Assembly: GCF_030295405.1 (NCBI RefSeq)
Contig: NZ_AP027080.1
Span: 1,054,001 to 1,118,000 of the forward strand
Reading direction: 5' to 3'
Source of the DNA: Mesoterricola silvestris
Lineage (GTDB): Bacteria > Acidobacteriota > Holophagae > Holophagales > Holophagaceae
Length of the DNA: 64,000 nt
The position numbers and the translations under genes were made by a program. A model generated the notes under the pieces. That model saw only the letters and a program-made list of their open reading frames with translations, was not told the origin of the DNA and did not search any database. Each line of letters begins with the position of its first letter. Positions within the stretch are counted from its first letter, which is position 1. Below, one piece after another: positions 24,329 to 63,229 of the stretch.

Positions 24329-24357
24329 TTGACGGGCAGGTTCCCGTGGCGCAAGAT
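24329..24357 (+). promoter_or_regulatory. Probable his operon promoter
   Basis: TTGACG at 24329-24334 and CAAGAT at 24352-24357 are separated by 17 bases. The -35 box is strong, the -10 box moderate. A start near 24364 would place the first leader peptide almost at the 5' end of the transcript, as expected for an attenuator. The -35 box touches the fadL stop. Confidence 0.45.
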
Positions 24358-24376
24358 GGGACCTTCTGAGGTATCC

Positions 24377-24451
24377 GTGACCGTCCTCGCCCTCCATCAT
24401 CCCCACCATCGCGCCTCCCACGGGGCGGCAGGGGCATGCGGCAGGCGCTGA
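24377..24451 (+). CDS. First His-rich leader peptide (24 aa) of the his operon
   Basis: A GTG-initiated frame with CTGAGG about five bases upstream. The product VTVLALHHPHHRASHG continues to a TGA and contains five histidines (codons 7, 8, 10, 11 and 15), four of them in HHPHH. Such density is very unlikely by chance and marks a sensor of charged tRNA-His. It is followed at 24474-24502 by a GC-rich hairpin. A second His-rich leader follows, so this is either an additional control stage or the vestige of one. Confidence 0.6.
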   Translation: MTVLALHHPHHRASHGAAGACGRR

Positions 24452-24473
24452 ACGAAACAAGGCGACCCAGCAC

Positions 24474-24502
24474 GAACCCCCCGGCCGACCCCCGGGGGGT
24501 TC
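24474..24502 (+). other. Hairpin between the two His leader peptides
   Basis: GAACCCCCC (24474-24482) pairs with GGGGGGTTC (24494-24502), a 9-bp stem with an 11-base loop. The following bases (TCGCATTC) are not T-rich, so it is more likely a pause hairpin or an inactive or factor-dependent terminator than a full intrinsic terminator. Confidence 0.55.
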
Positions 24503-24522
24503 TCGCATTCAAGGGACATTTC

Positions 24523-24570
24523 ATGAACCAGCCCATCCACCATCACGCCCATTCGCCCCATCCGGGCTAG
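24523..24570 (+). CDS. hisL: His operon leader peptide (15 aa)
   Basis: Leader peptide MNQPIHHHAHSPHPG with five histidine codons at 24538, 24541, 24544, 24550 and 24559, preceded by AAGGGAC. It ends 26 bases before an intrinsic terminator. Ribosomes stalled at the first His codons would leave TCCGGG (24561-24566) free to pair with CCCGGA (24599-24604), the 5' half of the terminator stem, giving antitermination; ribosomes that reach the TAG would cover it. The peptide is visible; the mechanism is inferred from classic his attenuation. Confidence 0.85.
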   Translation: MNQPIHHHAHSPHPG

Positions 24571-24596
24571 GCCGGGCCTTGCAAGCCTGAACCCTC

Positions 24597-24627
24597 GCCC
24601 CGGAGAACCTCCGGGGCTTTTTCTTTT
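24597..24627 (+). terminator. his attenuator terminator
   Basis: GCCCCGGA (24597-24604) and TCCGGGGC (24610-24617) form an 8-bp stem with a 5-base loop, followed by TTTTTCTTTT. This is a textbook intrinsic terminator and lies 11 bases before the hisG ATG. Confidence 0.9.
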
Positions 24628-24638
24628 CTGGAGAGAAC

Positions 24639-25478
24639 ATGGACACGATCAACCTGGCGATTCCCAAGGGCCGCATGGCCGAGGGGGTCCTTCGCCTCAT
24701 GGAGGACGCCGGCTTCAAGGTGCTGGCCAACGGCCGCAATTACCGGCCCGCGTGCGCCGATCCCCGCTTCCAGCTCAAGCTGCTCAAGCCCCAGGACATC
24801 GTCCGGATGGTGGAGCTGGGCCGGCACGACCTGGCCTTCGCGGGCCACGACTGGGTGGTGGAACTGGGCGCCGAGGTGGACGATATCCTGGACACGGGCC
24901 TGGACAAGGTGCGCCTGGTGGCCGCCGCGCCCCGCACCGGCCTCTCCACCCTGCGGAGCCGGCGCATCGTGGTGGCCAGCGAGTACGAGCGCATCACCCG
25001 CACCTGGCTGGACAGGGAGGGCTTCGACTACCTCTTCGTGCGCAGCCACGGCGCCACGGAGGTGTTCCCCCCCGAGGACGCCGACATGATCGTGGACAAC
25101 ACCGCCACGGGCAGGACCCTGGTGGAGAACGACCTGGAGATCGTGGACACCCTCCTGACCTCCTCCACCCGGCTCATCGCCAATCCCCGCCTGGGCAAGC
25201 GGGCCGAAGTGGACGAGCTCCTCCTGCTCCTCAATTCCGTCCTGGACGCCCGCAAGCGGGTGATGCTGGAGATGAACGTGGCCGCCTCAAACCTGGACGC
25301 CGTCCTGGGGATCCTGCCCTGCATGCGCATGCCCACCGTGATGCCCCTGGCGGGGGAGGGCGGCTTCGCGGTGAAGTCCGCCGTGCCCGCCAAGGAGGTG
25401 CGCCGCCTCATCCCCCTCCTCAAGGCCGCCGGCGCCACCGATATCCTGGAATTCTCCTTCAGCAAGGTGGTGTCATGA
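24639..25478 (+). CDS. hisG: ATP phosphoribosyltransferase (long form)
   Basis: First enzyme of histidine synthesis, joining ATP and PRPP. The product is 279 residues, the long HisG form, with catalytic domains followed by the C-terminal regulatory domain. N-terminal LAIPKGRMAEGVLRLMEDAG, the AGHDWVVE block and the PRPP-site DNTATGRTLVEND near residue 150 are visible; a C-terminal MPTVMPL and VPAKEVRRLIPLLKAAGA belong to the allosteric domain, so feedback by histidine is expected and HisZ is not needed. ATG follows GGAGAG. The stop overlaps hisC. It is controlled by the upstream attenuator. Confidence 0.95.
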   Translation: MDTINLAIPKGRMAEGVLRLMEDAGFKVLANGRNYRPACADPRFQLKLLKPQDIVRMVELGRHDLAFAGHDWVVELGAEVDDILDTGLDKVRLVAAAPRTGLSTLRSRRIVVASEYERITRTWLDREGFDYLFVRSHGATEVFPPEDADMIVDNTATGRTLVENDLEIVDTLLTSSTRLIANPRLGKRAEVDELLLLLNSVLDARKRVMLEMNVAASNLDAVLGILPCMRMPTVMPLAGEGGFAVKSAVPAKEVRRLIPLLKAAGATDILEFSFSKVVS

Positions 25479-62760: not shown

Positions 62761-63229
62761 TGTCCCGGACCGGCGCCAGGGATTCGCTGACGCAGGCAAG
62801 CTGCGTCAGCGGAAAGCCCACGGCATGGGGGGGATCGGGAGTGTTGGCACACTCCGGCTTCGATGGACGCTGGGGTCTGGGGCGGTTAGCTGGGCTCCCC
62901 TCCAGGGCCTATGCCCCAGCGGCCCGCTTCAAGTTAAAGGGATGGGAGCGGCTTCGCGCCGACGTTGATCTGTTTGCATCGTCCGCAAGCTCCCTATCCA
63001 TGTGGCTCTCACGGTAGGCGTTCAGCGTCGGCGCGACCCGGTGACCTTTTCGGGGAACTTGAAGCGTGTCGCAGGGCCATAGGCCCACCCGGGGAGCCCC
63101 CATCTTCCAACGGGCGGCAAGCCCCATCGAAGCCGGAGCGTGGCAACACTCCCGCTCAACCCCGCGCCGTGAGCCCTGCGCTGACGCAGCTTGCCTGCGT
63201 CAGCGAATCCCTGGCGCAGGTCCGGGACA
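62761..63229. repeat. 469-bp long inverted repeat with 204-bp arms
   Basis: 62761-62964 and 63026-63229 are reverse complements of each other with scattered mismatches. Outer ends are TGTCCCGGACC...; near-identical stretches include GCCAGGGATTCGCTGACGCA with GGCAAGCTGCGTCAGCG, CTCCGGCTTCGATGG, GGGCCTAT, GCTTCAAGTT and CGCGCCGACG. The loop is 61 bases. Each arm also contains its own small palindrome CGCTGACGCA-N7-TGCGTCAGCG. No protein frame looks real. The gap lies between the MshEN gene and the feo genes. Confidence 0.85.

Follow-up and report, generated by a model that had tools for sequence, protein, structure and literature searches.

The hisG leader of Mesoterricola silvestris

The genome of Mesoterricola silvestris (4.99 Mb, a single contig) carries two short His-rich reading frames in series in front of hisG, the first gene of its his operon; hisC, hisB, and hisH lie downstream in the same operon. 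In the window, the 64,000-nt stretch of DNA that was analysed and whose positions are used throughout, the parts between 24329 and 24639 follow in the order promoter, Shine-Dalgarno (SD) sequence, leader 1, hairpin 1, leader 2, terminator 2, and hisG:

24327 (end): FadL-type gene, upstream of the promoter and leader 1
24329–24357, plus strand: promoter sequence TTGACG-17 nt-CAAGAT, immediately following the FadL-type stop codon
24368–24371, plus strand: SD sequence GAGG of leader 1, five bases 5′ of the GTG at 24377
24377–24451, plus strand: leader peptide 1, MTVLALHHPHHRASHGAAGACGRR, GTG start, five His codons
24431–24441, plus strand: proposed antiterminator strand 1, GGGGCATGCGG, paired with the 5′ arm of hairpin 1 in the predicted stalled-state fold
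24474–24502, plus strand: hairpin 1, a perfect 11-bp GC-rich stem with a 7-nt loop and a U-poor tail, TCGCATTC
24523–24570, plus strand: leader peptide 2 (hisL), MNQPIHHHAHSPHPG, five His codons, found in 12 of 12 genomes
24560–24568, plus strand: putative antiterminator strand 2, at and around ATCCGGGCT; it shares bases with the end of the leader 2 frame and could form a duplex with the 5′ arm of terminator 2
24597–24627, plus strand: terminator 2, a 9-bp stem (GCCCCGGAG/CTCCGGGGC, 24597–24617) followed by TTTTTCTTTT
24639–25478, plus strand: hisG, ATP phosphoribosyltransferase, ATG at 24639, long form with a HisG_C domain

A sequence-only reading of the window had proposed tandem His-rich leaders before hisG; they are real, and the order of parts agrees with that proposal. 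In a six-frame scan of the window, at least four His among five codons occur at four places only, and two of these are leaders 1 and 2, whose His clusters are separated by 143 bases on one strand. When the whole window was shuffled ten times under a Markov model, four such positions appeared in the ten shuffles combined. The stop codon of leader 1 (24451) and the start of leader 2 (24523) are ∼70 nt apart, with hairpin 1 between them.

Elsewhere in the window, a repeated perfect hairpin of the form CGCTGACGCAG-(5 nt)-CTGCGTCAGCG occurs at 62785–62811 and 63179–63205, with a further copy in neighbouring stretches. Two copies lie just 3′ of predicted genes, and the hairpin is perhaps a dispersed palindromic element.

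Conservation of the tandem arrangement

HisG searches covered the genus, family, class, and phylum of the window's genome, together with named genomes. The tandem set comprises 12 genomes including that of the window: five from its own genus (g1), three from a second Holophagaceae genus (g8), and four from another Acidobacteriota family (f18), among them G107, the MAG Zod_Metabat.850. The HisG proteins of these genomes form one clade, and the order of parts from promoter to hisG is the same in 12 of 12. The sequence-only reading had staked its proposal on conservation of the first His frame and its start codon: leader 1, the position of its start codon, its SD, and the promoter are kept in every genome of the set. 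The comparison of hisG leaders that it had suggested likewise finds both leaders 1 and 2 in all 12. Judged from this comparison, leader 1 is more than a fortuitous frame.

Placed on the HisG tree, the tandem arrangement calls for a single change (support 81/94, 84% of bootstraps), and it perhaps originated once in this Acidobacteriota clade. One row of the tree, L085, was cut in the wrong frame and stands alone on a long branch, away from the tandem clade. A single His leader only is found in f2, a family of the same class as the window's (L058–L063), and in other Acidobacteriota (L070, L071, L077, L083, and L084). The window's family (f1) shares its class with f2, whereas f18 is in another class; hisG may therefore have passed between f1 and f18 together with its leader.

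Other Acidobacteriota show different arrangements before hisG. Four loci (L072, L075, L076, and L081) have no His-rich leader within the ≤250 bases 5′ of hisG and have a conserved small frame instead, YIKYCLxKTCLH-like (e.g., MRYATAYYIKYCLIKTCLH). In L076 and L081 this frame is followed by CTAACCTCC, which is complementary to the hisG SD region GGAGGTTAG; by sequence, the frame possibly encodes an unfamiliar kind of leader peptide belonging to a translational attenuator. Three further loci (L073, L078, and L082) contain one His leader whose conserved tail, like HHGHRHHAHRCVRAPREMAGRHSR, is unusually long, and no clear U-tracted terminator comes after it.

A single Trp leader attenuator with a terminator precedes the trp operon in the M. 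silvestris genome and in G001, which suggests that the lineage uses leader-peptide attenuation; with one leader there, doubling is not general in the lineage. The trpE leaders L092 (in M. silvestris itself, C1 near 2.936 Mb) and L093 contain STWNWCWWPQGSG and LTWNWSWWPQGSG, followed by a hairpin and then TTTTTCG or TTTTCGCG. Nothing attenuator-like was seen in the region upstream of ilvB.

Promoter, leader 1, and hairpin 1

The promoter boxes, TTGACG (24329–24334) and CAAGAT (24352–24357), are separated by a 17-nt spacer, as the sequence-only reading had them. A consensus promoter scan did not flag the window copy, whose −10 box is poor, though all 12 genomes have TTGAC[A/G] with a 17-nt spacer, 46–53 bases 5′ of the start codon of leader 1. 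The SD of leader 1 is GAGG or AAGG at the same place in 11 genomes and GAAGGA in the twelfth.

Leader 1 had been described as a GTG frame encoding HHPHH plus one more His, and it does encode five His in total, with the start-codon position kept throughout the set. Its orthologous frames contain 4–6 His codons, mostly in one cluster, while their other residues vary widely. The clusters read HHPHH, HHPHFH, HHRHSH, HHSHRH, and HHHRHH in g1, where the start codon is GTG or TTG, and HHASHHVAH, HHHHHH, and HHHPHH outside g1.

The GC-rich hairpin noted earlier between the leaders is present, with a stem of 11 bp rather than the 9 bp claimed for it. What follows the stem divides the set. Five to eight T among eight bases form a U-tract after hairpin 1 in G066, G068, G069, G107, G120, G132, and G155, as against two to three in all five g1 genomes. 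Because of this U-tract, unit 1 in the seven g8 and f18 genomes is, by its anatomy, a full attenuator. In the window and the rest of g1 it is an attenuator-like unit, and we file unit 1 as an attenuator for the g8 and f18 genomes only. Lacking the U-tract, hairpin 1 may terminate poorly in g1, and unit 1 termination in that genus is the weakest link of the tandem reading; we give about even chances that the unit still terminates in the window's own species.

Two other accounts of hairpin 1 were considered. TTTTCGC as a genome-specific terminator tail, which would explain the U-poor hairpin, is not supported, as 2 of 20 sites follow a hairpin (terminator statistics for the M. silvestris genome are based on 424 kb). 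Nor is hairpin 1 a dispersed repeat, its exact pattern being present once in the genome.

Leader 2 and terminator 2

Both a hisL with clustered His codons before hisG and a textbook terminator behind it had been called from the sequence, and both calls hold: leader 2 (24523–24570) contains five His codons, and terminator 2 (24597–24627) is of the intrinsic type, its tail carrying 6–7 T among eight bases in all 12 genomes. Hairpin 1 does not include the SD of leader 2, which is unclear in three f18 genomes. The C-terminal end of the peptide is P-P-G, L-P-G, P-S-G, or H-P-G in 12 of 12, and the terminal codons constitute the strand that pairs with the terminator 2 arm. The proposed pairing of TCCGGG in leader 2 with the 5′ half of the terminator was indeed found in the predicted folds, and the CCGGG of this putative antiterminator strand is kept in all five g1 genomes.

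One g1 genome is irregular here. In G003 (L034) a TTG replaces the TAG stop codon of leader 2, and the frame continues through the terminator region; this is a mutation or an assembly error.

Predicted folding and antitermination

To compare the two ribosome positions, the RNA of each unit was folded up to the terminator loop with a ribosome placed at the stop codon or, for the stalled state, at codon two of the His cluster. In 24 of 24 units the predicted upstream sequestration of the terminator 5′ arm is greater in the stalled state (0.51–1.00 vs 0–0.55), a contrast that is partly built in because less upstream RNA is free with the ribosome at the stop codon. Compared with shuffles over eight related, non-independent genomes, the stalled fold does better than chance, with Fisher values of 0.014 for unit 1 and 0.022 for unit 2, and the excess is carried mostly by genomes outside g1.

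Individual duplexes follow the same division. The unit 1 antiterminator duplex exceeds shuffles in G066, G068, G120, G132, and G155 (p 0.002–0.004; the value for G107, where the wrong hairpin was taken as unit 1, is left out). In the window p is 0.07 and the other g1 genomes are not significant, although four of the five g1 genomes retain the candidate duplex itself (GGGGCATGCGG with GCACGAACCCC). The window's unit 2 antiterminator is no better than dinucleotide shuffles, and across composition-matched and dinucleotide shuffles neither antiterminator of the window stands out.

Equilibrium folds of the complete RNA with a masked ribosome favour the terminator in most states, without discrimination, so the switch would have to be kinetic and operate during transcription, as in classical attenuators. 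There is little covariation: the 12-row alignment of the unit 2 antiterminator is too gappy, and unit 1 varies too little within g1. Searched against Rfam, the hisG leader has no His_leader, T-box, or riboswitch match up to E=1. Sub-threshold Rfam sRNA matches are look-alikes of the terminator and were rejected.

A model of serial attenuation and its alternatives

In our view the leader of this clade is probably a ribosome-mediated his attenuator of a homotypic tandem type, with two putative checkpoints in series that read charged tRNA-His. From the parts and their order we infer that the leaders are translated, that transcription terminates and responds to histidine, and that unit 1 still terminates in g1; derepression at low charged tRNA-His is a predicted feature of the leader. 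Transcription would start just 5′ of leader 1. With ample charged tRNA-His, a ribosome would reach the leader 1 stop codon and cover the G-rich strand, and hairpin or terminator 1 would form; polymerases that pass unit 1 would meet leader 2 and terminator 2 under the same logic. With charged tRNA-His scarce, the ribosome would stall while translating the His codons, the 5′ arm of the terminator would be captured by the G-rich strand upstream of it, and the polymerase would read through. hisG would be reached only by a polymerase that escapes both checkpoints, so that expression would follow Q1 × Q2, the product of the two escape probabilities. In such a series basal leaks would multiply, giving a lower leak, and logarithmic sensitivities would add, giving a steeper response.

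Most of the leaders fall short of the seven His codons of E. coli hisL, and with a second checkpoint sensitivity and a low leak could be recovered despite this lower count. The sensitivity of an attenuator has been linked to how many regulatory codons it has and to what fraction they make up (Elf and Ehrenberg, PMC1183508). We hold the fullest version of the model more tentatively, at somewhat below an even chance: a two-checkpoint attenuator that perhaps evolved once, with a multiplicative and steeper response, in which hairpin 1 of g1 acts by pausing or in a factor-dependent manner.

The sequence-only reading had left a choice between a tandem attenuator and the relic of a duplicated leader. 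Conservation in 12 of 12 genomes and the complete unit 1 of g8 and f18 favour the tandem attenuator; the relic survives for the window's genus only, because it is there that the U-tract after hairpin 1 is absent. A related alternative, which we think unlikely but worth keeping in view, is that unit 1 is decaying or demoted in g1: leader 1 would be translated and hairpin 1 would form, yet without a U-tract it would only pause the polymerase, and unit 2 alone would control hisG. In a variant, hairpin 1 would time the arrival of a ribosome at leader 2. The U-tract missing in all five g1 species and present in the seven other genomes, the GTG or TTG start of leader 1 in g1, and the strong tail of terminator 2 everywhere (6–7 T among eight) are all consistent with such a demotion. 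Against it, the hairpin arms, the His cluster, and the SD are kept across the five g1 species while spacers diverge; all 10 columns of the hairpin 1 3′ arm core are invariant, compared with 7 of 34 in the upstream spacer. Such retention is unlike the expectation for a mere relic. A demoted unit 1 in g1 is, moreover, compatible with a tandem attenuator in the other genomes.

Coupling of the two leaders is a good deal less probable. Here a single leader system would have two read-outs, as when a ribosome on leader 1 alters translation of leader 2, and the short distance between the units in the window, with hairpin 1 between them, would suit it. However, neither unit shares its hairpin or its possible antiterminator with the other, the inter-unit distance varies widely over the 12 genomes (about 70–120 nt), and the leader 2 SD is not enclosed by hairpin 1. 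Least probable of all, and in our view very improbable, is that hairpin 1 serves the FadL-type gene as its 3′ end or as a stabiliser, with leader 1 a chance or unrelated frame and leader 2 the sole regulator of hisG: in g1 that gene does end just 5′ with no other hairpin after it, but g8 and f18 keep leader 1 and hairpin 1 without such a FadL end upstream, a TTGAC[A/G] promoter lies between gene and leader 1 in all, and the His cluster is conserved.

Relation to known leader systems and significance

The tandem attenuator proposed here shares with the enterobacterial his attenuator (hisL; Rfam His_leader) a leader with His codons, a competing antiterminator (a putative one here), and an intrinsic terminator before hisG. 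It differs in having two leaders and terminators in series where the enterobacterial system has one of each, in its shorter His runs, and in giving no match to Rfam His_leader. The single his leader attenuators of other Acidobacteriota (the f2 family and the five further loci named above) belong to the same phylum and operon and, by anatomy, the same mechanism, with one leader.

Tandem leader-peptide attenuation is known from Salmonella mgtCBR, where one leader RNA carries tandem attenuators with the leader ORFs mgtM and mgtP (PMC3641672). These sense different signals, ATP and proline, and their stems are unlike intrinsic terminators (PMC3641672). By anatomy the hisG leader resembles this system in having two leader ORFs on one RNA, each with a putative attenuator, although the U-tract of unit 1 is present in seven relatives and lacking in the window. 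In the hisG leader, by contrast, both leaders are His-enriched, and the intrinsic type of terminator is seen in unit 2 and, among relatives, in unit 1 as well. Serial sensor-terminator units before one operon also occur as tandem riboswitches, such as that of B. clausii metE (PMC3641672), and as tandem T-boxes; there the RNA itself senses the ligand or tRNA, whereas the hisG leader would rely on ribosome stalling. The rimP leader of some Gammaproteobacteria has a second tandem terminator upstream and a possible antiterminator (PMC2965389), but it serves another operon and is not reported as a leader-peptide pair (PMC2965389). We found no published homotypic tandem leader-peptide attenuator in a search that covered few subscription papers.

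Almost none of the Acidobacteriota attenuators in one survey has an assigned function (PMC2965389), and the present analysis proposes one. Leader-peptide attenuation is the textbook case of sensing by the ribosome, and the single tandem version that we found in the literature, mgtCBR, serves two signals. A conserved homotypic pair would make it possible to test whether bacteria stack ribosome sensors for a lower leak and a sharper response, as they stack riboswitches, and sister lineages with a single leader would provide natural controls.
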